Below, piece by piece: positions 27,526 through 42,939 of a stretch of 64,000 bases of DNA. The notes under the pieces were generated by a model. It had not been told where the DNA came from. It ran no database searches and saw nothing but the letters and a program-made list of their open reading frames with translations. The position numbers and the translations under genes are program-made. Numbering within the stretch: the stretch's first letter is position 1; each line of letters starts with the position of its first letter. The stretch comes from an uncultured Christensenellaceae bacterium (GTDB taxonomy: Bacteria; Bacillota; Clostridia; Christensenellales; UBA3700): assembly GCA_944380285.1 (NCBI GenBank), contig CALWGZ010000004.1:1-64000 (forward strand), written 5' to 3'.

Positions 27526-27528
27526 CGC

Positions 27529-27567
27529 AACGGAAGTCGGTTCATCTGCCGGCTTCCGTTCTTTTTT
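27529..27567 (+). terminator. First terminator after tmRNA
   Basis: 12-bp stem AACGGAAG...CTTCCGTT with one G-U pair, then six T. Confidence 0.75.
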
Positions 27568-27693
27568 GCGTGGTGACGCTGTGGGGAGTGCACCCCTGTT
27601 GCTTGCCTTCGTCAAGCAGACAGGCTGCACGCTCGCGCGCCACGATACTCCCGTATCGTGGCGTCCCCCAACTTGGGCGCTCGCTGTAAGGCA

Positions 27694-27712
27694 ACTCCCC
27701 TCAGCTCCACCA
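27694..27712 (+). repeat. Direct repeat of the tmRNA 3' end (attachment-site scar)
   Basis: ACTCCCCTCAGCTCCACCA repeats the last 19 bases of ssrA (27507-27525) exactly and is followed by its own terminator. ssrA 3' ends are classic integrase attachment sites. Only 168 bp remain between the copies, so the element has been lost or decayed. Confidence 0.65.
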
Positions 27713-27755
27713 AAAGAAACCAAAATCGAATCTGTCGGTTTTGGTTTCTTTTTTT
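27713..27755 (+). terminator. Second terminator, after the duplicated tmRNA end
   Basis: 13-bp perfect stem AAAGAAACCAAAA with a 13-nt loop, then a T-run; probably the original ssrA terminator. Confidence 0.7.
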
Positions 27756-28256
27756 GTAGACCCGGAAGTTTAATCGCGCGCAAAAAGATGATCGCATTTC
27801 GAAAAAACTCAAATGCGCGCGGTTCAGAAAACGCAAGCAATAAGTCACGCCTTATGCTTCATTCCTCTTTGCGTTTTATTTTTGCGCAAGCAAAAGCCCC
27901 TGTTGTCTCCACCATTTCGCCCTGTCGCCTGTTCGACGGGGCGTTTTGCTTTTTTGCTATTTAATGCAAAATCACAACGTCCACGCTTTTGCGGCAATGG
28001 GCTCATAGCTCCGATATCGAAGCAACGAAATATGTCTGACCTCGTCAGGATTTCCGCTATGTTCAAGCACGAGCCTCGTTGAATGCAATAAAGAAGTATC
28101 CGACGTCAGGCGACGTCGGATACGGGGTTTGCTTTTTCAAAAGCAGACAATCTTAACGATAAGACTCAACCGCTTTGCCGTAGTCGACACGAACGCGCTG
28201 CCAGGAAAGCGGTCGTGTATGTTTACGCGCTTGCGGACTGCCGCTTCGAACGTAGA
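27756..28256. other. Intergenic region with two hairpins, no gene
   Basis: No supported gene. Two stems are visible: CGCCCTGTCG/CGACGGGGCG with T-run (27918-27956), and a perfect 12-bp stem GTATCCGACGTC with AGGC loop (28096-28123). The second could terminate the lipoprotein transcript coming from 28257 on the minus strand. Confidence 0.5.
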
Positions 28257-29918
28257 TCAGCGGTTTCCTTTGAACAAATACTTGTTGATGAAACCGTCAG
28301 TCGAAGAAGTCAGAGCGGTCGCATTGAGATAGTAGCTGTCGACGGCGGTTCCTTCGGTCGCGGATGCACTGTTTGCGTACCACCAGCCGTTTTTGTCGAG
28401 GAACGTCGCGTACGTCAGATCGGTACATCCGCCGAACGCAGACCTGCCTATCGCAACGACACCTCTGCCTATGACCACGCTCTCAAGCGAGTAACATGAA
28501 GAAAACGCATTTTCTCCGATATAAGTGACGTTGTCGGATATTTCGACGTCTGTTACGTCAGAAGCATAGAACGCACATCTATAGATGCCGTACTCGCCGT
28601 CGGTCGGCAGAATTATATCTGTTTCGCTGCCCGTGTAGCCCACGAGGGATTTGCTTGCGCCGTCGGTAAAGAACACGAAACCGTCCTCATCGGTAGAAAG
28701 CTTGCTTTGATCGCTTGCAGACTTGTAGACGTATTTGGCATACTGTGCGACACTACCGTTGCCGGTATCTCCCGCCGTAATGTTGCGGCTGCCGAGATCG
28801 TAGACTTCAAGCAGTTTTTCACATATGGCGAACGCTTCAGAACCTATACTCGTTACGGTTGCGGGTATGGTTATACTCAAAAGGTTCTTGCAATTCCAGA
28901 ATGCTTGAGCACCGATACTGACCACTCCCGAAGGCATATTGAACCAAGTGATATTCGTAGTGGAAAACGCCTCTTTTCCTATGGTCTCGAGCGCGCTGCC
29001 CTCTGCGATCTCTACGGTAGTAAGAGCGATGCATGTTCCGAACGCTTTATCGCCGATCTCTTTGACACCCTTGCCTATCTTGACATATTCGAGCTCGGAA
29101 TTGTTACTGAACGCCGACGAACCTATCCTGACGACGCTGTCGGGGATCACGACGCTCTTGAGACTGCTGCACCTGCTGAATGCGGCATATTCGATGAATT
29201 TAGTCGTCGACGGAAGGGTATATTCCGTAAAGGATGCAGACGACATTGTGACGAGAATAATATACGGATTGTCTTCGTTGCCGAGGTAACTGCCTATTCC
29301 GTCGGGATCGCTGTTATATTTGAGCTTGGTGCAACCGCTGAAAGCGTTCTCTCCTATTTTCTCGATGCTGTCGGGGATTTGTATGCTCTCCATGGCAGTC
29401 CATCTCTTGAAAGCGTTTGCGGCGATCTCCTTGACGGGAAGATCGTTATATACCGAAGGTATTACCACGTCTTTTTTGCTGTACGTTCCCTTTCCCACAA
29501 CGATATAATACGTCTGATCGGTCGAAAGTTTGTATTCGAGCTGATTGTCGGGGTCTTCAGCTCCGCACACGGCACAGATGCCGTTCATGAATATATGCTC
29601 GCCCAGAATGCCGTATTCGAAAGTCTCAGTGCCCTTTTCACCGCACTCGCACGAATAGTAATACAACGCTTTCTGGGTGCAGGTCGCCTCGCTTTTAAGA
29701 TATTTTTTCTCTGTAACCATACGGTCGAAAATATGAGCGTGGGTTCCGTCCTGCTCTCCTGCGGGACCGTCTGACACATTTCCGTCGCCTGTGGAATCGC
29801 CTTGCGTACCGCTATTGCCGAGCAGCCCGTCGCAACCCGTTGCGAACACCGCAAAAGTGACGACGATCACGACAAGAAGTGCCAAAAGGACAGTAAGCTT
29901 TTTTCTTGTTTGCAACAT
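28257..29918 (-). CDS. BspA-like leucine-rich-repeat surface lipoprotein
   Basis: 553 residues. Signal peptide with lipobox FATGC, a low-complexity Gly/Ser/Asp linker, then a region with CxxC pairs (CTQKALYYYSCEC, CAVCGAEDP), then about ten BspA-type leucine-rich repeats (AFSRCSSLKSVVIPDSVVRIG pattern). Such proteins act as adhesins or binding proteins in gut and oral bacteria. GGAGG precedes the ATG. It is divergent from a two-component system with regularly spaced repeats between them. Confidence 0.9.
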   Translation of the reverse strand: MLQTRKKLTVLLALLVVIVVTFAVFATGCDGLLGNSGTQGDSTGDGNVSDGPAGEQDGTHAHIFDRMVTEKKYLKSEATCTQKALYYYSCECGEKGTETFEYGILGEHIFMNGICAVCGAEDPDNQLEYKLSTDQTYYIVVGKGTYSKKDVVIPSVYNDLPVKEIAANAFKRWTAMESIQIPDSIEKIGENAFSGCTKLKYNSDPDGIGSYLGNEDNPYIILVTMSSASFTEYTLPSTTKFIEYAAFSRCSSLKSVVIPDSVVRIGSSAFSNNSELEYVKIGKGVKEIGDKAFGTCIALTTVEIAEGSALETIGKEAFSTTNITWFNMPSGVVSIGAQAFWNCKNLLSITIPATVTSIGSEAFAICEKLLEVYDLGSRNITAGDTGNGSVAQYAKYVYKSASDQSKLSTDEDGFVFFTDGASKSLVGYTGSETDIILPTDGEYGIYRCAFYASDVTDVEISDNVTYIGENAFSSCYSLESVVIGRGVVAIGRSAFGGCTDLTYATFLDKNGWWYANSASATEGTAVDSYYLNATALTSSTDGFINKYLFKGNR

Positions 29919-29963
29919 AAATCGTATCCTCCTTTCATGAGCCGTTTTTTATTGATAATTGGA

Positions 29964-29998
29964 TTTTAGCAAACCAAGTGCTAAAAAAGTGCTAAAAA
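29964..29998. promoter_or_regulatory. Regularly spaced TGCTAAAA sites between lipoprotein and kinase genes
   Basis: AGTGCTAAAAA occurs twice in perfect tandem (29977-29987, 29988-29998), an 11-bp step. An inverted copy TTTTAGCA lies at 29964-29971. SARP-type activators bind direct repeats at 11-bp spacing, and the adjacent regulator has that type of DNA-binding domain. Confidence 0.55.
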
Positions 29999-30052
29999 CC
30001 CGGTGTTCATCGAAGATTTTTTTATTTTTTTTGCAAATTGCGAACAAAAAAT

Positions 30053-30082
30053 TTGACGGAAGCCTCTGCACGAATGTAAAAT
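30053..30082 (+). promoter_or_regulatory. Promoter giving a leaderless kinase mRNA
   Basis: TTGACG, 18 bp, TAAAAT, then 6 nt before the ATG at 30089; no Shine-Dalgarno. Confidence 0.6.
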
Positions 30083-30088
30083 TTAGTT

Positions 30089-31495
30089 ATGCGGGTATCG
30101 AAACAATCAAAACAACGGTTAAAAACGATTGCAATATTTATTGCCGACCTTATGGCTCTTGTCGTAGGTGTGATCTCTGTCGCGATACTGTCTTCAACGA
30201 ACACTTCCTCGACAGTATATTTTTCGGGATTTCTGATCTATTTTTCTATTATCGCCCTATTCCTGTTCACGCTGATAATTATCGTGGACTGCTATGCGAT
30301 GTTTGCGATAAAGACGTCGACGTATCACTCTTTGCTGATGGCACTTTGCATAATGGTCTGCTGTTTACTGTCTGAAGACTATCTGTCGCTGTTAGATCTG
30401 TCCTCGGCGTACGGAACCGTCTCGAACATCGTCCAGTACGGAGTTTATACGTTATTCCTCGCGATAGTCGTCATTTTATTCGACTTCTCTTACAAACTCG
30501 GGATGTCAAAAAAGCGTAAGCTGAGCTATTTTGCCGTCTGTGTACTGTCTTTCGTGCTTTTTGCCGCTCTGTATCGGGTAAAACTGCATATCTTGGCGTA
30601 TTGCCTTGGTCTTGCGATGACAGTCGAACTGTCTTATTACACTTCTCACAACCCGAATGTGCACTGCTTCAATTCTCATTCTTTCCGCCCGACGCAGTTT
30701 ATCACGTTCGCTCTGAGCGGGCTCATCCTTACCAACACGATATATTCGTCGGGGTTTGTAGAGAACTACCCCTTCGGGACGACCTCTTTTTACTTGTTCA
30801 CGTCGACTCTTGTTTACGCTTTTATATATTTCAGTTTTATTCGCAAAACGACGAAAAGAGACCTCGCAAACGCGCAGTACAGAGCGAAGTACGAACAGGT
30901 AAAATCGGGTATGTTGCAAGCGCAGATAAAGCCGCATTTCGTGTTCAACGTGCTGTTATCGATAAAGAATCTCTACCACAGCGACACCGAACTGGGGGAC
31001 GAAGCAATAGATCTGTTTTCCAAACACCTGCGCGCGCAGGTAGAAGCCGCAGGTGCCGACATGGTGCCTTTTGAAAAAGAACTGGACACCATCCGCGTGT
31101 TTACCGATCTAGAAAACATACGTCAGGATAAAGAACTGAACCTGATATTCGATATAGAATATTCCGATTTTCAGATACCTGCCCTGTCGCTGCAGACTTT
31201 TATCGAAAATGCGATAAAATACAGCAGGATAAGCGAAAAAGAGGACGGATATATCCGCATATCCTCCCGATGCGAAAACGGAGAAATATTGCTCGAGATC
31301 TCGGATAACGGCGTGGGGTTCGACCCTTCGGAGATCAGGGACACGTCTTACGGGATACGCAATTCTGTCGAACGCTTCCGTCTTCTGACGGGCGTGACTC
31401 CCGAAATAATCAGCTCACCAGGAAACGGCACGTCGATAATGATACGTTTCAATAAATCCTCATCGGAGAAACACCATGAAAATAATAATAGTTGA
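30089..31495 (+). CDS. LytS/YesM-type sensor histidine kinase
   Basis: 468 residues. The N-terminal half holds several membrane segments (to about 250) with short loops, so sensing is probably within or near the membrane. The His_kinase domain has the phospho-acceptor His283 in AQIKPHFVFN, then FIENAIKYS and SDNGVGFD for ATP binding. It pairs with the regulator encoded next, whose start overlaps by 20 bp. Signal unknown; the divergent LRR lipoprotein may be a target or sensor partner. Confidence 0.9.
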   Translation: MRVSKQSKQRLKTIAIFIADLMALVVGVISVAILSSTNTSSTVYFSGFLIYFSIIALFLFTLIIIVDCYAMFAIKTSTYHSLLMALCIMVCCLLSEDYLSLLDLSSAYGTVSNIVQYGVYTLFLAIVVILFDFSYKLGMSKKRKLSYFAVCVLSFVLFAALYRVKLHILAYCLGLAMTVELSYYTSHNPNVHCFNSHSFRPTQFITFALSGLILTNTIYSSGFVENYPFGTTSFYLFTSTLVYAFIYFSFIRKTTKRDLANAQYRAKYEQVKSGMLQAQIKPHFVFNVLLSIKNLYHSDTELGDEAIDLFSKHLRAQVEAAGADMVPFEKELDTIRVFTDLENIRQDKELNLIFDIEYSDFQIPALSLQTFIENAIKYSRISEKEDGYIRISSRCENGEILLEISDNGVGFDPSEIRDTSYGIRNSVERFRLLTGVTPEIISSPGNGTSIMIRFNKSSSEKHHENNNS

Positions 31496-32264
31496 CGACG
31501 AATTGCACGCTTTGCAGCTCTTTCTATCAGATCTGATCGGGCTCGACATCGAGTACCGATTCTTCAAGGACGACAAAAACGCGATACTTAAATACGTCGT
31601 TTACGAAAACCCCGACGGAGTCTTTCTCGACGTGAATATGCCCGGGATCAACGGCATAGATCTGGCATCCGAACTCATCGCGATCAAGCCGTCGATAAAG
31701 ATTGTCTTCGCAACGGGTCTGAATATCTCGGAAAACGCGCTGCCGAACGACGTAGCCGCCAACACCGTCGGCTTTCTGTACAAACCCTATGACAAAGATA
31801 AGCTTTATTATTACCTGTCGGAGATAGCCAACAAGACTAGAAAAATGACGGTCAAGACATTCGGATCTTTCGATTGCTTCATCGACGACCGCATAGTCAG
31901 ATTCTCGTCAGCCAAATCCAAAGAACTGTTTGCGCTGCTTATCGCCTACAGCGGCAAAACTCTGACGATGAACGACGCAATATCCCAGATTTGGCCAGAT
32001 ACCGACGTGGATAAAAGCAAGATACTGTATCGCGACGCCGTATGGCGGCTCAGAAAAACGCTGAGCGAACTTCATTTCGATTGCGTCGACTTCAGACGGG
32101 CTTGCCTTGTGCTGAACAAATCCAACCTGATCTGCGACAGCTGGGATTACGCCGAAGGAAAAAACAAAAATTACAACGGCGAATTTATGAAAAATTACGA
32201 TTGGAGCATAGCTTATCTCCCCATTCTTGACAAGCTTAATTCAAACACGGACACAACGACCTGA
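31476..32264 (+). CDS. Response regulator with SARP-like DNA-binding domain
   Basis: 262 residues. Receiver domain 1-120 with VDDE at the start, phospho-acceptor Asp52 in FLDVNMPG and Lys in YKPYD. The C-terminal domain (TFGSFDCFIDDRIVRFSSAKSKELFALLIAYSG... IWPD) is the winged helix of the SARP/OmpR type seen in Clostridia, unusual for a LytS-type kinase partner, where LytTR or AraC domains are usual. GGAG lies inside the kinase gene before the ATG. Confidence 0.88.
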   Translation: MKIIIVDDELHALQLFLSDLIGLDIEYRFFKDDKNAILKYVVYENPDGVFLDVNMPGINGIDLASELIAIKPSIKIVFATGLNISENALPNDVAANTVGFLYKPYDKDKLYYYLSEIANKTRKMTVKTFGSFDCFIDDRIVRFSSAKSKELFALLIAYSGKTLTMNDAISQIWPDTDVDKSKILYRDAVWRLRKTLSELHFDCVDFRRACLVLNKSNLICDSWDYAEGKNKNYNGEFMKNYDWSIAYLPILDKLNSNTDTTT

Positions 32265-32414
32265 TCTCTTACTGAAGTTTCCTGCGCCGTTTTGTTACTG
32301 CGTGTACCCGCACGCGACGTAATGCGTAAAGTTTTTTTCGATCGTTTCGTCGTCTACACAGCTTGTCATAGACAAACACACGCACGGTGCCAAACGAAGT
32401 TTTACGGTGAATTG

Positions 32415-32639
32415 TCAAACCAAGTGCAACACTTTTTGCAATTCCTGTTCAAACAAATCTGCCGGTGCTTTGTAACCGAGTACTTTTTTAGGTCCGGCGT
32501 TAATCAACGCCAGATTCTTTTTCAGGGTTTTCTCTCCCACGTGGGAGAGATTGCGCCCTTTCGGATAAAACTCTCTCAGTAAGCCGTTGCTGTTTTCATT
32601 TGTTCCTTTTTGCCACGCACAATACGGATCTGGGTGCAA
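32415..32639 (-). pseudogene. Remnant of an IS30-family transposase (C-terminus)
   Basis: 74 residues matching the end of IS30 transposases: HPDPYCAWQKGTNENSNGLL, then REFYPKGRNL, and a tail with VLGYKAPADLFEQ. The catalytic part is missing; sequence breaks off at about 32639, directly against an unrelated fragment on the other strand. Distinct in sequence from the remnant at 17075. Confidence 0.85.
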
Positions 32640-33031: not shown

Positions 33032-36000
33032 TTATCGCCCGATGCCGTAGAGCGCGTCGTACTTGATGCCGTTTGCCGCGTCGGCGAGCTGTTTGTCGAA
33101 GTTGTTCGCGCTGTCTTTGGAGTACATGAAGAAGCGGAAGTCCTGCGAGCCGGCGGCGAGGGGCAAAAATCCGCCCTGGTCGATCATGACGTCGTCGTCC
33201 GACTCCGCCAAAATGGAGATGTTGACGCGGTATTGCTTGAAGTCGCAAAGACTCTCGTCGAGCCCGTCGGTGACGACTTGGGCGTAGTTTTTACCGCCGC
33301 CGTAGAGCGCGATCCCGCCGTGGACGAAGTCTCCGTCCGCGGTGTTTTGGATGATGTCGCCGTACTTGTCGGGCGCATATGCGGCGGCGAAGCGGAGCAT
33401 TCCGCCGAGGTCGAGGCTGAACCTGCCGTCCACGCCGTTGGAGTCGATCAACGTCGAGCTGTCGATGAGATCGAGCCCCTTCCAATCGTACATGCGCACG
33501 TCGCCCTCGAGGCGGAGCACGCTTGCGAACGAAGTGCCGCCCGTCCCGGGCCAGCCGTCAAACTCGATGCCGCTCTCGGCGGAATTGGCGGCGAGCACCG
33601 CTCCGGCGAAGTTGGACTCGACGCCGATCGAGAAGAGTCCGCTCGTCTCGAGCACGCTGTCGCGCAAAGTGAGGTCGCTCATCACATAGCGGTCATAGAA
33701 ATACTCATCTTGCCACAAGCTGTCGTTCATTTTCGGATAGGGCTTGCCGGCGGCGTCGACTAGGTCGGGCTCGACGGAGGAGCGCGTGTCGGAGGCGAGC
33801 GCACGGTTGACGCCCAGCTTGACGAGGAACTCTCTGCCCTGCGAGATCAGACATCTGTCGATGGTGACGATCGCCCTGTCCCTGTCCGCGATCGACGAGC
33901 CGTCGAGAGTGTCGCGCATATAGTCGTCGCCCGAGGTGTTGCCGCCGTAGACGCGCACGACGGTGCGCCCGTTGCGGACGCGGCAGCCGCTCAGCGCGCA
34001 GTCGGCGTTGATGTCGAGCACGGTGCCGACGTTGTTGAGTTTTTCGAGTTTGTATTGTCCGTCCTCTTCGAGCAAGTCGTCGCCGCAGCCGAGCAGCGTC
34101 GCGTTGGAGATCTCCACCCCGTCGGTGCGGACAAGGAAGGCGATGTTGTCCTGCCCCGCGACGGAAGCGATCTCGCCGAGACGGACGAAATAGAGCGGTC
34201 CCTTGAACAGCAGCGGCACTCCCGAGCCGTCCTTTGCAGTGGTGAAAGGCTGGGCGTTGAGGGTATGTCCGTTGCCGTAGAGGTCGTTTTTGAGCTCGAG
34301 CACAAAGGACACGTTCGCCGCGCTCTCGTTGCCGAGGTTGGAATAGAATTCTGTATTGTAAGTGGACTTTGTCGTGCCGAGGCGCGCGCGCATCGCTTCG
34401 ATGTTGCCGCCGTACTCTTCGCCCAGCATGATGTCGTCCTCGAGGACGATCGCAAGACCGGCGTCTGCTGCCTTGAACACCTCTTGAGAGGTCGAACAGC
34501 CGACCGCGTCCGCGGCGACGCGCACGGTCAAAGACGAGCGGACCTGCCTGCCGAACGCGCCGTTGCCCTTCCACTCGGCGGTGACGGTGACATAGCCGTT
34601 GCCGAGCGGCACAAGCGAGATGTTGTCGCCGTCTACGGTGAGGGACGCGAGCGCGGGGTCGGACAGGGTGAACTCCAACTCTCCCGCCGCTTCGATCGCG
34701 GTCGCGCCGAGGAAGGTGCGCACGTCGAGCGCGAGCGCGTTGGATACGAGTTTGCCGTCCGCGTATGCCTTGCCGGGCACCGCGAGTTCGCGCAAAAGCC
34801 CCAGATCTGTCTTATTGGCGATCTGCACCGAGGTGACCTCGTCGATCGCGGTGACGGCGATCTCGACCGGGAACACGTCCATCGGATAGCCGCCGCGCAT
34901 GGGCGTGACGACGAGTTTGAACGAAGCCGCGCCGCTTGCGCCGATCGTACAGCTGTCGCCGTGCTCGGTGACGGTGATGTCGTCCGACGTCGCGTCCTCG
35001 ACGCGCCACTCATATTCGACGCCGTCGGCGATGACGGACGGAACGGCAAAGAACGTGACTTCGCTGCCCGTCAAGATGACCGCGTCCGCGCCCTGCACGG
35101 GCAGAGTCGACGTGACCGAGAACGCGAACTCCGCGCTTGTGACCGACACATCGACGCTCTCGTCGCCGCCGGCGATCTCAATGTCGAATTCGTCGGGTCT
35201 GTCCTCGCTCAAAGTGAGGTCGACGCGGTAGCAATGCTCGCCCGCGCCTTGGACACGGGTGATGGTTTTTGACAATATGTATTGACTTTTGACCTCGATC
35301 TCGTCATTGGCGGCAACGAAGAAATAGGCTTTGTTGCCGCCCTTTTCGATCGCGAGAGCCGCCTCGGCGACGCCGTTGACGACGATGCCGGACACGGTTT
35401 CGGGCACGCTCGTCGCGACCTCGACGTCGCGGACGATGTCGCCGAACGCTCCGCCCTTGACGGTGAAGCGCAGCTTTGTCACCCCCTCGAAGGGGAACAG
35501 CGCGGTGTTTGCCTTCAATTCGGCAAAGCCCTCGACCACCTCGACCTGCGCCTCGGCAAAGCCTGCCGGAACGGTAGACGTGCGGTAGTTGTATCTGCCC
35601 GACTCCATCGAGGCGGACAAGACGCCGCCGCTCTCGACGAGCATATTGTTGCCGTCCGCGTCGGACAGTGTGATGTCAAAATCATACGGCTTGGACGACG
35701 AGACCGCGACGACGAAGCTGTCGGTATAGCCGCCGTCGTCGGTGATCGCGACGACTCGCGCGGAGCCTGCGGTATACGCCGCGACATTGCCCTCTTTGTC
35801 CACTCTGACGTCGGCGAGCTGTGCGCCCTCGACCTGTTCTACGCGATAGGTCACGCCCTTGTCGGTCGCGTTTTCGGGCGACACGCGCGCGTCGATCGCA
35901 AAGCCGTCAAAGTCGGCGATGTCGATCGCGAGCACTCCGCCTTCGGGCGCGTTGAGGATCTCTATCCCGTTAGCCGCGATGTCGACGCCGAGGCTCGCCG

Positions 36001-36076
36001 TTTGACCTGACGAGAACACCGCGAACACGAACAGCAGCGGCAGCACCAACATCAATATTACTACGGTCTTTCTCAC
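33032..36076 (-). CDS. Large secreted protein with Ig-like repeats
   Basis: 1014 residues with an N-terminal hydrophobic signal (VVILMLVLPLLFVFAVFSSG) and no lipobox, so it is exported and either released or signal-anchored. The first half looks like successive bacterial Ig-like (Big_2-type) domains (VTYRVEQVEG, GNVAAYTAGSARVVAITDDGGY). The second half is beta-rich and resembles right-handed beta-helix sequence (NATLLGCGDD, LSGCRVRNGRTVVRVYGG). No sortase motif is visible. Starts with GTG overlapping the permease stop by 4 bp; last gene of the operon from 42939. An ABC exporter beside it suggests joint function. Confidence 0.82.
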   Translation of the reverse strand: MRKTVVILMLVLPLLFVFAVFSSGQTASLGVDIAANGIEILNAPEGGVLAIDIADFDGFAIDARVSPENATDKGVTYRVEQVEGAQLADVRVDKEGNVAAYTAGSARVVAITDDGGYTDSFVVAVSSSKPYDFDITLSDADGNNMLVESGGVLSASMESGRYNYRTSTVPAGFAEAQVEVVEGFAELKANTALFPFEGVTKLRFTVKGGAFGDIVRDVEVATSVPETVSGIVVNGVAEAALAIEKGGNKAYFFVAANDEIEVKSQYILSKTITRVQGAGEHCYRVDLTLSEDRPDEFDIEIAGGDESVDVSVTSAEFAFSVTSTLPVQGADAVILTGSEVTFFAVPSVIADGVEYEWRVEDATSDDITVTEHGDSCTIGASGAASFKLVVTPMRGGYPMDVFPVEIAVTAIDEVTSVQIANKTDLGLLRELAVPGKAYADGKLVSNALALDVRTFLGATAIEAAGELEFTLSDPALASLTVDGDNISLVPLGNGYVTVTAEWKGNGAFGRQVRSSLTVRVAADAVGCSTSQEVFKAADAGLAIVLEDDIMLGEEYGGNIEAMRARLGTTKSTYNTEFYSNLGNESAANVSFVLELKNDLYGNGHTLNAQPFTTAKDGSGVPLLFKGPLYFVRLGEIASVAGQDNIAFLVRTDGVEISNATLLGCGDDLLEEDGQYKLEKLNNVGTVLDINADCALSGCRVRNGRTVVRVYGGNTSGDDYMRDTLDGSSIADRDRAIVTIDRCLISQGREFLVKLGVNRALASDTRSSVEPDLVDAAGKPYPKMNDSLWQDEYFYDRYVMSDLTLRDSVLETSGLFSIGVESNFAGAVLAANSAESGIEFDGWPGTGGTSFASVLRLEGDVRMYDWKGLDLIDSSTLIDSNGVDGRFSLDLGGMLRFAAAYAPDKYGDIIQNTADGDFVHGGIALYGGGKNYAQVVTDGLDESLCDFKQYRVNISILAESDDDVMIDQGGFLPLAAGSQDFRFFMYSKDSANNFDKQLADAANGIKYDALYGIGR

Positions 36077-37767: not shown

Positions 37768-38485
37768 GGCTCAGGAAATACTCCTCGAAGTCGAAATCGG
37801 GATTTTTTGCGGCGATCTCGCGCACGTTGAGCGAGGACACTTGTTTGCCCTTGCGTATCAGCACGACGCGGTCGCAAAGTTTGGCGACGGTGTCGAGCGC
37901 GTGGGACGAGAACAATATGCCGTTGCCCTCTTTTGCGTATTGCACCATAAAGTCCTTGACCGCCTTCATCGTGCGCGGATCGAGCCCGGTCATGGGCTCG
38001 TCGAGCACCCACAATTTGGGACGATGGATCAGCGAGCCCATCATGCAGATCTTTTGGCGCATGCCGTGCGAATAGGACGCGATGAGGTTTTGGACGCTGT
38101 CGCCCAGCGCGAACACCTCTTCGAGCTCTTTCATCCTGACCGCGCGCACGTCGACGGGTACCTTGTAGATGTCCGCCATAAAGTCGAGATATTGCACGCC
38201 TGTCATCTTGACAAAGACGGCGTGGTCGTCGGTGACGAAGCCCATATTCGCCTTTGCCTTGACGGGTTCGCGGACGATGTCGCGACCGCAAATGGACACG
38301 CTGCCCTTGTCGAACGGGATCATCCCCTCGAGGCATCGCAGCGTCGTGCTCTTGCCGGCGCCGTTGTGCCCGAGCAAGCCGACGATCTCCCCCTCTCCCA
38401 CCGAAAAGGACACGTCCTCGACCGCCCACGGGGCGTGCTTGCCGTATCGCTTGAACAGTCCCTCGACCTTTACGACCTCACTCAT
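37754..38485 (-). CDS. ABC transporter ATP-binding protein
   Basis: 243 residues. Walker A GHNGAGKST, signature SYSHGMRQK (variant of LSGGQ), Walker B LWVLDEP and the switch His in SSHALDT are all present. The ATG at 38485 is chosen because GGAGGAG lies 7 nt upstream, within the end of the preceding gene, and it overlaps that stop codon as ATGA. CcmA/NatA-like exporter subfamily. Confidence 0.95.
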   Translation of the reverse strand: MSEVVKVEGLFKRYGKHAPWAVEDVSFSVGEGEIVGLLGHNGAGKSTTLRCLEGMIPFDKGSVSICGRDIVREPVKAKANMGFVTDDHAVFVKMTGVQYLDFMADIYKVPVDVRAVRMKELEEVFALGDSVQNLIASYSHGMRQKICMMGSLIHRPKLWVLDEPMTGLDPRTMKAVKDFMVQYAKEGNGILFSSHALDTVAKLCDRVVLIRKGKQVSSLNVREIAAKNPDFDFEEYFLSHESD

Positions 38486-41400
38486 ACCCAAACTCCTCCG
38501 GTGCAGGTGTAGGTCTTGCCGGCGGCTATCTCGGTGCCGTCATTGAACTTGGCGGACAACGTCGCTTCAAAATATTTTGGACTGTCCAAAAGTCCGAGCG
38601 CAGGCGACAGATCTTCGGTAAAAGAACCTTGTATTTGAGCACCTGCGTCCATAACCAACGTCCCGCTTTCACCGCCTATCACAGCACCGAGCGTCGCGCC
38701 GGAAGCAACATTTATATTACCGTTGACTGTGATTTTTGCCGGGGTGTCCACGCTGTAATCGGGGGTCACGTCTTTGTCGATCGACGTACTTCTCATATGC
38801 GATGTCGACGGATATTGTTTGTTGTTGCCGCCGTCCTGCCATTTTGTCAAACCATTGTCATAAGCGTCGTTGATGTCGGCGTATGCATACAGTGCGCCGT
38901 TGACATTGAGCGTCGCGCCGCTGTTGATGTTCAATTCCGCTCCCGGCAGTAGCTTGATCTGCACATCGCTCGGGATAGTTGTAGTCCCGCTTGCCACCGT
39001 CAACTTGAAATGACCCGGGATGGGAACTTGCAGTTTTTTCGTGCTTGCCGAAGCGGCGCTGACCTTGACTTCCAAATTGTGGAACGTAGCATTGCCGTTC
39101 ATTGCAAATCGCACGTTTCCGTTTGTGTTGACATAGCTCTTCTTCAATGTACCCGATGACAATTCGATAAACGCGTCGCTTTCCGGAGAGACAAACGCCA
39201 CCTTCGTGTCGACCCTTCCTATAAGCGTAGCGGTGATCGTAGCCTTTGCATAATAATACGATCCGGCATTGAATGTCGTATTTATCTGCAGATTATTTAG
39301 CGTATATTGATTGATCGGGAAAACTTTGCCTTTGATCTTCGAGGATATACTTCCTCCCTTCCAACCATACAGGTTGAAGACCTCGTAAATCGACGAACCG
39401 CTTTCGGCGATCATCTCTCCGCTCCCGGTGATATATCCCATCGCGTCCGCCCACGAACCGCTTTCAAGCACGATCTTTGTGTCTTTTTCGGTCACGAGTT
39501 TGCCGTAATTTATGGCATGTGAAGATGCCGCGCCGTTGGAAGCGATGCTTGCGTTGACAAGCAGGCTGCCGCCGTCTTTGACCGTCAGAGTCGTCCCTTC
39601 CGTCATCGTCAAAGTCACATACGGCGTCGCGCTTGTTTCCGTGTTGTCGTCTTTAAGATAGTTGTCCGCGCTCGTCGAATAAGTTCCGTCATACGGCACA
39701 AGCAATTTCACGCCGCTCTTGACGGTGTAATATCCGTCGCCGTTGTACGCAAGCTCCTTGACGGAAGCGTCGGCAAAGGCGGTGTCGTACTTGACGATGA
39801 CCGTGCCGCTCGACGCGGTGTTGAGCGCGTCCTCGATCGTATAAAGCGTATTGCCTATGCCGACCGACTTGACTTTGAGATAGGCGGTGAAGGTCTCGGC
39901 TCCGCCCTCAAAGACGGGCTCGTAATACTCGAGCTTTTCCGCCTCGGCTTCGTCGATCTTGAAGTCCACCCGATAGGTGCCGCCCACCGTGTTGACATTT
40001 GCGCCTTCGGCGTCGTTCGCGTCGAGATAGTTGACCGCTTTGGCGGTGACCAAGCCGTCGGGGAGAGTCTGCGACTTGCCGCTCTCGTCTGTCACGGATA
40101 TGCCTTCCAAGAAGTCGGGCAAAGCGGCGTTGATGTCGATCTCAAAATCGTTTGCTGGCTTTATGGTCAGCCTCTCCTTGCGCGCGGTGAAGTCGATGGT
40201 GGTTTCATACTTGTTGTAATACCTCTCGTCCGGGCAATAGGTGATCTCCACGCCGGTGTTTTCGCCTAAGGAATAACCCCCGTCCGGGTGGACCCATGAA
40301 TAGCCGCTGTTCAACTTTATGTCGTCGAGCGTCTTGTTTGCGCCGACGATGATGTTTTCTCTGTCGACAATGGCGTCGTATTCCGGCAGATCGTCCTCTG
40401 TCAGCGTCGCCTTGATCGTGTCGACGGTGACGGTATATTCCGCGCCGAGCCAATTGTCGCCTTCGGGCACATACACGTCGAACGAGAATGTGCTGTCCGC
40501 GGTGTTGACCTTTGTCGACTGCCCTTCCTTGAGCGCGATCGTGCCGAACTTCGCGGTCAAATTGTTTGCCCAATCGACATCTTCGCCATAGGCGTAAGTG
40601 CGCCACTCGCCCTTTGCGGCGATCTCGTTTTGCGCCTTGGTGATGTCTGCGGTATAGCTGCCGCTGTAATCGCTGTGGTTTTTCGCCGAGATCTTGAAAT
40701 ACACCGTATACTCCCCGACATTCGTCGCGGTCGGGATGCTTTCGCTCATATCGTCCTCGGACAAGCCGTAGACGATTTTGAAGTCTTCGAGTTCTTCGGA
40801 GTTGGCGACCTTTATGCCCTTGCCGAGAGGCTGCGCCTCACCTGTGTACTCGGCAGAATAATCGTCGATCTGTCCGATCTCGAAATCGATCGCGATAACT
40901 TCGACCTCGACGACGGTCGCAAATTCAAAGTTTTCGGTCATATCGGCTTCGCCCTTGAACACGCGCGGAGCGACCGTCCAAGAGAATTTGCCGGCTTGTT
41001 CAACGTTGTCCGAGCGATAGGTGCCTACGTCGCTCGCCCCCATCGTCAATGTGCCCTCGAAGTTGTGTCCGTTCGGCAAAGTCGGCTTGAAATCGGACTT
41101 GCTCCATGCCGTGCCGGCCTTGACAGTGGCGGACGCCTCGATCTCGACCTTGTATGTTGTGACCTCGAAGCTGTCCTCTTCGTAGGTGATATCGTAATTT
41201 TGCGCGGAGTAGCCGCTCACACTCACGGTGTAGCTCCCGACGACGGGCATGGCTTCGTCGAACTCTTCGCCGTCTGCACGCGCTATCTTGAATTTCGCCG
41301 AGCCTTCGAGCACTTCTTGATCTTCGTCGAAAACAAAACCGGAATAGTTTGTCCCGAAAGACGGCTTTGTGCCGTAGGTATAGCTGTCTGCGGAACTGAC

Positions 41401-42939
41401 CGCCGCGATCGTCAACGGCGCCTTGACCACTTCAAAGCTCGTCGACGCGTCGGCGATCGAATAGTTTTTCGCAAAGTAGCCGCTCGCGGTGACCGTGTAC
41501 TCGCCCACTGCGAGCCTTTGCGCGGTATATTCGCCGTCCCCGTTCGAGTAGACAAACTCGCCCTTGGTGACGACATCTTTGCCGTCGCCTTCGACAAAGC
41601 CGTCGAACGCGACCTCGGCATCGGGCTCCTGCCCATAGACGACGCCTTCCTTGCCGTCAGTGACGGAGACGGTCATCGTCAACGCCTTTTGCTCGACCGT
41701 AAACTCCGCGCCCGTGACCTGCGCGTCATAGTTGTTCAAACCGCTCACATCGGCGGTATAAGTATATTCGCCGACTTCAAGCTTGTCTTGCGCTCCGTCG
41801 ACATACGCGGAGATGACGCGCTCGTCGTCGCCGACCCAGCCTGTCGCGGTGACAGTCGCGGTCGGCAGCGCTTCGCCGTAGACGACCTCGCTCTTGTCCA
41901 AGGTCACGACGACCTCGAGCGGCGCCTTGGCGACGTTAGCAGTCGCGGTCAACGTCTTTTCGCCCTCGATCGTGCCGCCTTCATATGCGTAGGTCGCGCT
42001 TACGACGACCTCCAGCGCGGTTTGACCTGCGCTGACGGGGACAAAGTCGACGTCCTCGGTGCCGTCCGCCCAAGCGTACGAGAAGGTCATCCCGTCGATC
42101 TCGGGCAGATCCATCGATATGCCGCCGCCGTAGACGACGCTTGCGACGTCCGTCTCGTCGATCGCGACACCCGTCCAATCGATCTCAAACTTTGCGACCG
42201 CGGTCACATCCTTTGCCGGCATCGTCGCGCCGTCTTGGAGCGGTTCGCCGTCGACAGTCCAGCAAACAAAGCTCAACCCTTTTGGCGCGGTCGGCGCGTC
42301 CAAGACGATCTCGTCGCCGTACTCGACCGACTGCTCGGCGCTGTCGCCAAGCACGCTCGCGGTCAATTTGTAAGAATTGACGGTATAGAGCGCGGTGATC
42401 TGCGTGCGCCCCTTGATCTCGTCAAAGTCGCCGTTCCAGCCGGCGAAGGTGTAGCCCTCGTGGACGGGAGCGGTCGGGGCGGTCGCCGCGCCGCCGTATT
42501 CAACGCTTACCTCGTCGATGGTCTCGCCCGTCAAGCCGTCCTTGAAAGTGACGGTATAGCCGGGCTTTTGGTCGTCGTCGGGAGTTTCCTCGCCGCCGGG
42601 CGTCTCCTCTCCGCCCGGGGTCTCGCCCGAGCCTTCGACTGCCTTGAACACGGCGTACAAAGTGACGTCGCCCGTGACCGTGACGGACGTCGGGTCGACG
42701 ACTTCGCCGCCGTCGGTCAAGCGCCAACCGACGAACTCAAATTGTTTTCCGTCTTGGGAAGTTTTGACGGGCGTCTCTTCAGGAGGCACGATCGCCGCGC
42801 CGAATTTGGCTTCCGTCTCAAAAAAAGTCTCGCCTTCGCTGACGAAGACCACGTCGTACGACCCTTCGGTCGTGATGCATCCTGCGAATATGCACGCTGT
42901 CAACGCGCACACGACAAGTGCGACAAAAAATTTTTTCAT
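38482..42939 (-). CDS. Giant MBG-domain surface lipoprotein
   Basis: 1485 residues. Signal peptide with lipobox IFAGC (Cys21). Then InlB/Listeria-Bacteroides repeats (FEFVGWRLTDGGE, YTFAGWNGDFDEI) separated by a GETPGGEETPGGEE linker, then several MBG domains (VVYGEALPTATVTATGW, VVYGQEPDAEVAFDGF, YTYGTKPSFGTNYSGF), and a long C-terminal beta-helix-like part. It should stand off the cell as an adhesin or binder. First gene of the operon; translation of the ABC ATPase is coupled to it. GGAGG precedes the ATG. Confidence 0.9.
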   Translation of the reverse strand: MKKFFVALVVCALTACIFAGCITTEGSYDVVFVSEGETFFETEAKFGAAIVPPEETPVKTSQDGKQFEFVGWRLTDGGEVVDPTSVTVTGDVTLYAVFKAVEGSGETPGGEETPGGEETPDDDQKPGYTVTFKDGLTGETIDEVSVEYGGAATAPTAPVHEGYTFAGWNGDFDEIKGRTQITALYTVNSYKLTASVLGDSAEQSVEYGDEIVLDAPTAPKGLSFVCWTVDGEPLQDGATMPAKDVTAVAKFEIDWTGVAIDETDVASVVYGGGISMDLPEIDGMTFSYAWADGTEDVDFVPVSAGQTALEVVVSATYAYEGGTIEGEKTLTATANVAKAPLEVVVTLDKSEVVYGEALPTATVTATGWVGDDERVISAYVDGAQDKLEVGEYTYTADVSGLNNYDAQVTGAEFTVEQKALTMTVSVTDGKEGVVYGQEPDAEVAFDGFVEGDGKDVVTKGEFVYSNGDGEYTAQRLAVGEYTVTASGYFAKNYSIADASTSFEVVKAPLTIAAVSSADSYTYGTKPSFGTNYSGFVFDEDQEVLEGSAKFKIARADGEEFDEAMPVVGSYTVSVSGYSAQNYDITYEEDSFEVTTYKVEIEASATVKAGTAWSKSDFKPTLPNGHNFEGTLTMGASDVGTYRSDNVEQAGKFSWTVAPRVFKGEADMTENFEFATVVEVEVIAIDFEIGQIDDYSAEYTGEAQPLGKGIKVANSEELEDFKIVYGLSEDDMSESIPTATNVGEYTVYFKISAKNHSDYSGSYTADITKAQNEIAAKGEWRTYAYGEDVDWANNLTAKFGTIALKEGQSTKVNTADSTFSFDVYVPEGDNWLGAEYTVTVDTIKATLTEDDLPEYDAIVDRENIIVGANKTLDDIKLNSGYSWVHPDGGYSLGENTGVEITYCPDERYYNKYETTIDFTARKERLTIKPANDFEIDINAALPDFLEGISVTDESGKSQTLPDGLVTAKAVNYLDANDAEGANVNTVGGTYRVDFKIDEAEAEKLEYYEPVFEGGAETFTAYLKVKSVGIGNTLYTIEDALNTASSGTVIVKYDTAFADASVKELAYNGDGYYTVKSGVKLLVPYDGTYSTSADNYLKDDNTETSATPYVTLTMTEGTTLTVKDGGSLLVNASIASNGAASSHAINYGKLVTEKDTKIVLESGSWADAMGYITGSGEMIAESGSSIYEVFNLYGWKGGSISSKIKGKVFPINQYTLNNLQINTTFNAGSYYYAKATITATLIGRVDTKVAFVSPESDAFIELSSGTLKKSYVNTNGNVRFAMNGNATFHNLEVKVSAASASTKKLQVPIPGHFKLTVASGTTTIPSDVQIKLLPGAELNINSGATLNVNGALYAYADINDAYDNGLTKWQDGGNNKQYPSTSHMRSTSIDKDVTPDYSVDTPAKITVNGNINVASGATLGAVIGGESGTLVMDAGAQIQGSFTEDLSPALGLLDSPKYFEATLSAKFNDGTEIAAGKTYTCTGGVWV

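Follow-up and report, generated by a model that had tools for sequence, protein, structure and literature searches.

Genes of the locus

In the window, the whole 64-kb stretch of DNA that was analysed, a lipoprotein gene and a two-component operon are arranged divergently. The lipoprotein gene (28257..29918, reverse strand) encodes a BspA-type leucine-rich-repeat protein of 553 residues (LRR_5, 4.6e-62 in Pfam), having a signal peptide with a lipobox (...FATGC), and is the predicted target of the circuit described here; its Shine-Dalgarno sequence is AAAGGAGGA (29926..29935, reverse strand). Among a further 12 genomes of the genus no ortholog of this lipoprotein is found, the best match (39% identity) extending over the leucine-rich repeats only.

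The forward strand encodes a membrane sensor kinase (30089..31495) and a response regulator (31476..32264), the two genes overlapping. In Pfam, the kinase has the LytS-family catalytic core (PF06580, His_kinase; 56.6 bits with a cut-off of 25.2, 3e-15) together with HATPase_c, and its sensor part matches no known family. The 5TM LytS sensor domain also finds no match in the kinase, and the label LytS-type, given in the initial annotation, is kept here for the catalytic core and not for the sensor part.

The kinase-regulator operon has its own sigma-A-type promoter, TTGACG-N18-TAAAAT (30053..30082, forward strand), with the same layout in the related loci L054, L055 and L093 and a similar one in L069. 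Its -10 element ends 6 nt before the ATG, or 6 to 7 nt when L054, L055 and L093 are included (30053-30091 in the window), and this spacing points to a probably leaderless transcript of an operon that would be basally expressed. The pattern TTGACN-N17/18-TANNNT is kept in the relatives, whereas the box promoter of the lipoprotein gene, described below, lacks a -35 element. When compared with distant relatives, the kinase is much less conserved (31-37% identity) than the regulator (56-59%), which suggests that different signals are fed into one output logic.

The response regulator is of the OmpR/PhoB type

The regulator consists of a receiver domain (Response_reg, 8e-14) and, as seen in its AlphaFold model, an OmpR/PhoB-like winged helix. 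The model has a mean pLDDT of 70 and the topology of a winged helix-turn-helix domain, followed by a short tail (221-262) of low confidence, and its top Foldseek matches are RpaA, KdpE, VanR and PhoP. The match of Trans_reg_C (PF00486) to the regulator is below the cut-off (16.1 bits, as compared with 26.2), and such weak matches are present in 24 of 26 family members. The recognition helix spans about residues 178-198 and contains the sequence YRDAVWRLRK (185-194). The conserved residues D7, D8, D52, T80 and K103 are consistent with phosphorylation of the regulator.

The regulator had been described as SARP-type, and this is not borne out, since none of the 26 family members matches BTAD (PF03704) at E<=1 and the model matches the OmpR/PhoB response regulators. 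SARP membership is rejected on the absence of BTAD, and the OmpR/PhoB fold without BTAD places the regulator in the OmpR/PhoB type. Repeats at an 11-bp step do not decide for SARP membership, being common also to PhoB-type sites. LytTR has no match in the regulator of the window and one weak match (E 0.048) among the 26 members.

Tandem boxes and the promoter they form

The perfect tandem repeats at an 11-bp step that had been noticed between the lipoprotein and the two-component genes are confirmed: AAGTGCTAAAA occurs twice at 29976-29998, which can equivalently be described as two copies of AGTGCTAAAAA from position 29977. The window has no other perfect 11-mer tandem, and none is generated in 40 dinucleotide-preserving shuffles. 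In the host genome (1.85 Mb in 18 contigs) this remains the one site when up to two mismatches are allowed in the repeats, or up to three in the repeats and the -10 element.

When read on the lipoprotein strand, the element is TTTAGCAC-TTT-TTTAGCAC-TTGGTTTGC-TAAAAT, followed by the Shine-Dalgarno sequence and the start codon. The two predicted regulator boxes, the upstream one at 29989..29996 and the downstream one at 29978..29985 (both reverse strand), are exact repeats of each other and are conserved across families. The -10 hexamer TAAAAT (29963..29968, reverse strand) is assigned by alignment with TATAAT, TATCAT, TATGAT and TACAAT, which are found in the relatives at the same 9-bp spacing. 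A TTGACA-like -35 element is not present in the lipoprotein promoter, and the -35 region is taken up by both boxes. The geometry TTTAGCAC-N3-TTTAGCAC-N9-TANNAT is constant in nearly all confirmed copies, which come from several families.

An inverted half-site had also been proposed. The sequence TTTTAGCA does exist at 29966-29973, and on the lipoprotein strand it is TGCTAAAAT, coinciding with the -10 element. Since other species have TATAAT, TATCAT, TATGAT or TACAAT at this place, a third half-site is not conserved there, and the sequence is reinterpreted as being mostly the -10 element.

Co-occurrence of box and regulator

The 19-bp core of the element was searched, with at most one mismatch, in 396 genomes of the order, giving 18 sites in 13 genomes, as compared with 1 for the reversed control. 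Two of the matches, those of G279 and G306, are intragenic, lack a -10 element and are considered to be chance matches; these, and one site (in G209) whose -10 element is weak and located at 8 bp, were set aside before the spacing was counted. In the remaining boxes the distance is exactly 9 bp, followed by TANNAT (or TATAAC).

A regulator profile, built from nine close regulators and searched in the same 396 genomes, gives a match above 420 bits in 12 genomes, of which 11 also have the box; the exception, in G010, is truncated, as the contig ends 28 bp from the regulator. None of the 384 other genomes has a box with a -10 element, the two coding chance matches being ignored. The co-occurrence has a Fisher p of 1.5e-20, a value that overstates independence because the regulator loci are phylogenetically related. 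The box is absent from two genomes with decayed copies: G006 (L037), having two regulator fragments beside an LRR gene, and G242 (L195), in which a deletion fuses the kinase to the DNA-binding domain of the regulator. One paralogue of the regulator, G274:C29, lacks its own box.

The divergent order of kinase and lipoprotein with the box between them is seen in G000, G009, G078, G175, L069 and L093. The absence of the repeats from relatives with this gene order would have spoken against the initial annotation; the opposite is found, the repeats being present in G009, G078, G175, L069, L093 and others.

Genes downstream of the box

The pattern TTTAGCACNNNTTTAGCACN9TANNNT was also scanned freely across 84,980 species genomes, and 39 stretches match. 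The 29 matches in uncultured Clostridia/Christensenellaceae all have TTT or TAT as the spacer, although the pattern left the spacer free. The other ten, from unrelated bacteria (Bacteroidota, Mycoplasma, Prochlorococcus and others), have neither spacer, and two of them adjoin hrcA; these ten are set aside as chance or hrcA-linked matches.

Most of the matches in Clostridia precede lipoprotein genes, and about 19 of some 33 genes downstream of a box encode lipoprotein-type products. LRR_5 (BspA leucine-rich repeats) is present in several of these products, whereas GLUG or Listeria-Bacteroides repeats are present in others; a trypsin-like protease and an SPFH protein are among the few remaining kinds. 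Many boxes precede lipoproteins far from any kinase. At five loci (L068, L077, L080, L046 and L047) conserved boxes with a good -10 element are seen without an evident downstream gene; small RNAs or small proteins may be expressed from such boxes.

Covariation of half-site and recognition helix

Neighbouring regulator clades (195-370 bits) have the same promoter architecture with other half-sites. In the clade of the window, the helix YRDAVW goes together with the half-site TTTAGCAC. The half-site TTTAACGC is found with the helix YRNAVF in G385, G226 (twice) and G246, and imperfectly in G170, whereas TTTCACGC is found with the helix YRNAKC in G093. The half-site TTTGGCGC, or near variants of it, occurs in G152, G106, G036 and G044, where the helix is YRDAV followed by C, Y or S; in G036 and G044 this variant box faces the kinase itself. 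The strict architecture is present at 8 of the 14 sister-clade loci, as compared with 0 in 20 shuffles, and at the other six no strict box is found, with imperfect ones in G170 and G229. No such box is seen at 23 more distant regulator loci (100-150 bits).

The comparison of helices and half-sites shows that position 5 of the box is G where residue 187 is Asp, and A where it is Asn. The two Asn187 groups stand apart in the regulator tree, suggesting two independent joint changes, so that Asp187 to Asn and G to A at position 5 apparently changed together twice. From this covariation we infer a direct contact between residue 187 and box base 5. With this natural series of half-sites and helix variants, the exchange of a single residue and a single base would directly test the DNA specificity of an OmpR-type regulator.

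Transfer of the cassette

The block 29903..32428, comprising the first codons of the lipoprotein gene, the promoter, the kinase and the regulator, is 99.1% identical to its counterpart in G009, a different species, although the core genes leuS-serS of these genomes are only 78% identical. As judged from these identities, the promoter-kinase-regulator block is a recently transferred cassette. Beyond the block, the lipoproteins of the window and G009 differ (30% identity), and the regulator tree interleaves the families f1 and f24. The same cassette with a different lipoprotein indicates a route by which bacteria may swap surface proteins with control unchanged.

A 202-bp unit ending in the 3' end of tRNA-Val (27713..27914, forward strand) is 100% identical to a unit beside tRNA-Val in G009; in the window it follows the 3' end of tmRNA, and in G009 that of tRNA-Val. 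It is possible that this unit is the left edge of the transferred island, and an island moving between tRNA-like 3' ends is the simplest reading. This stays a suggestion, as neither an integrase nor a clear right end has been found; beside the cassette, both the window and G009 lack an integrase. The stretch where the identity to G009 stops (32429-32620) resembles, by eye, the terminal part of a gene for an IS30-type transposase, which obscures the right border of the cassette.

Proposed mechanism and alternatives

Control of the lipoprotein by the regulator through the boxes is strongly supported by the co-occurrence, the promoter geometry, the conserved arrangement and the covariation with the recognition helix. 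The box, its geometry and conservation, its co-occurrence and covariation with the regulator, and the recent transfer are read directly from the genome sequences. In the proposed mechanism, the kinase and the response regulator would act together as a two-component system, expressed from the sigma-A promoter of their operon. On a signal, the regulator would be phosphorylated, and two copies would bind head-to-tail, each with its winged helix on one of the TTTAGCAC boxes, which are spaced by one helical turn. As the boxes replace the -35 element, the regulator is predicted to recruit RNA polymerase, for which the promoter by itself offers a -10 element only, and the divergent gene of the BspA-like surface lipoprotein would thereby be switched on. 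Further genes, mostly for lipoproteins, may be activated through this box in related genomes, and the regulator-promoter cassette would move between species with the box being kept and the lipoprotein cargo replaced. We consider it very probable that this mechanism, with activation by the phosphorylated regulator and exchange of the cargo, is correct. The activation that had been proposed in the initial annotation is thus upheld as regards control, and that this control is positive is what we infer from the promoter.

The opposite effect, in which the bound regulator would keep the lipoprotein promoter repressed in the absence of a signal, is unlikely. The boxes do overlap the place where region 4 of sigma would sit, and a regulator bound there could block the polymerase. 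However, an intact -35 element to be blocked is absent in every copy, and a spacing to the -10 element that does not change between such distant relatives is the hallmark of activators in contact with the polymerase, such as AfsR, whose box overlaps the -35 element (PMC10936776). Slightly less probable still is that the element mainly autoregulates the kinase-regulator operon, its effect on the lipoprotein being secondary. The element lies between both genes, and the variant box of G036 and G044 agrees with such a role, but in the clade of the window the box and its -10 element are directed away from the kinase gene, for which there is a conserved sigma-A promoter of its own, and the boxes far from any kinase do not fit autoregulation either.

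It is very hard to reconcile the data with the half-site being a piece of CIRCE, by which the heat-shock repressor HrcA would control the lipoprotein, and this origin is rejected. The CIRCE half-sites TTAGCACTC resemble TTTAGCACTT, and two of the unrelated pattern matches adjoin hrcA, but CIRCE is an inverted repeat, TTAGCACTC-N9-GAGTGCTAA, with a 9-bp gap, whereas the element of the window is a direct repeat, which co-occurs with a response regulator and covaries with its recognition helix. Relatives have normal CIRCE-like sites separately; in G000 no CIRCE is found at up to two mismatches. Equally remote is a functionless tandem arising by chance or slippage, as could be imagined for a short and A-rich repeat: the tandem is conserved in several families at a fixed distance from the -10 element, zero are expected, and none is seen in the shuffles, and it is rejected as a chance product.

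A wider reading, combining the mobile cassette of kinase, regulator and promoter, which exchanges its lipoprotein cargo under retained control, with a recognition code that insulates paralogues, is put forward tentatively and may well not hold as a whole. In this code, Asp or Asn at helix residue 187 would go with G or A at box base 5, and residue 190 with base 4. The cassette would perhaps travel to tRNA and tmRNA 3' ends.

Comparison with known systems

The OmpR/PhoB response regulators (PhoB, M. tuberculosis PhoP, KdpE) share the receiver and the winged helix with the regulator of the window and are its best fold matches. Regulators of this type bind head-to-tail on direct repeats about one turn apart, with 7-bp motifs and a 4-bp spacer in the case of PhoP (PMC4832192), and the sites of PhoB (pho box) cover the -35 element (PMC3348028). 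In contrast to these systems, the DNA-binding domain of the window's regulator matches Trans_reg_C weakly, below the cut-off, its kinase is of the LytS/PF06580 type where the usual partner is of the HisKA type, and the box sequence and the recognition helix are distinct.

The SARPs (AfsR, ActII-ORF4, DnrI) also have an OmpR-type DNA-binding fold. Their sites are direct repeats with an 11-bp step near the -10 element, replacing a poor -35 element, and the AfsR box has two 11-bp repeats with contacts on the first 8 bp (PMC10936776). The window has likewise direct repeats with an 11-bp step, and an 8-mer 9 bp from the -10 element (about 8 bp for SARPs). The regulator differs from SARPs in lacking BTAD and in having a receiver domain as well as a kinase as its partner, and the targets are surface lipoproteins instead of antibiotic clusters. 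With the LytS/LytR systems (PF06580 kinases) the catalytic core of the kinase and the operon order are shared, but the regulator has no LytTR and the kinase no detected LytS sensor (5TM) domain.

No earlier description of this system is found in the open-access literature. New are the regulator family, the surface-lipoprotein regulon in uncultured Clostridia, the natural series of boxes and helices, and the exchange of cargo. For these little-studied gut-type bacteria, the regulator, its site, the promoter geometry and the targets of a regulon of surface lipoproteins are defined from sequence alone.

Units at tRNA and tmRNA 3' ends and neighbouring genes

Units similar to the 202-bp unit are seen in the window (27526-27712, in addition to 27713-27914), at L033:3014-3215 and at L109, L111-L114, L116 and L123. 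They are mostly about 185-210 bp long, sometimes in tandem, and are located directly 3' of tRNA and tmRNA genes, each having a terminator-like hairpin at the start and a 16-21 bp copy of the tRNA 3' end at its end. No match to these units is found in Rfam. One unit has an unusually strong fold (z -4.2) and relatives in 10 of 59 genomes. The units look like small tRNA-targeted insertion units. On the other side of the cassette, two very large proteins of 1014 and 1485 residues (33032-36076 and 38482-42939), predicted to be secreted or exposed at the surface, flank an ABC-type permease/ATPase pair.
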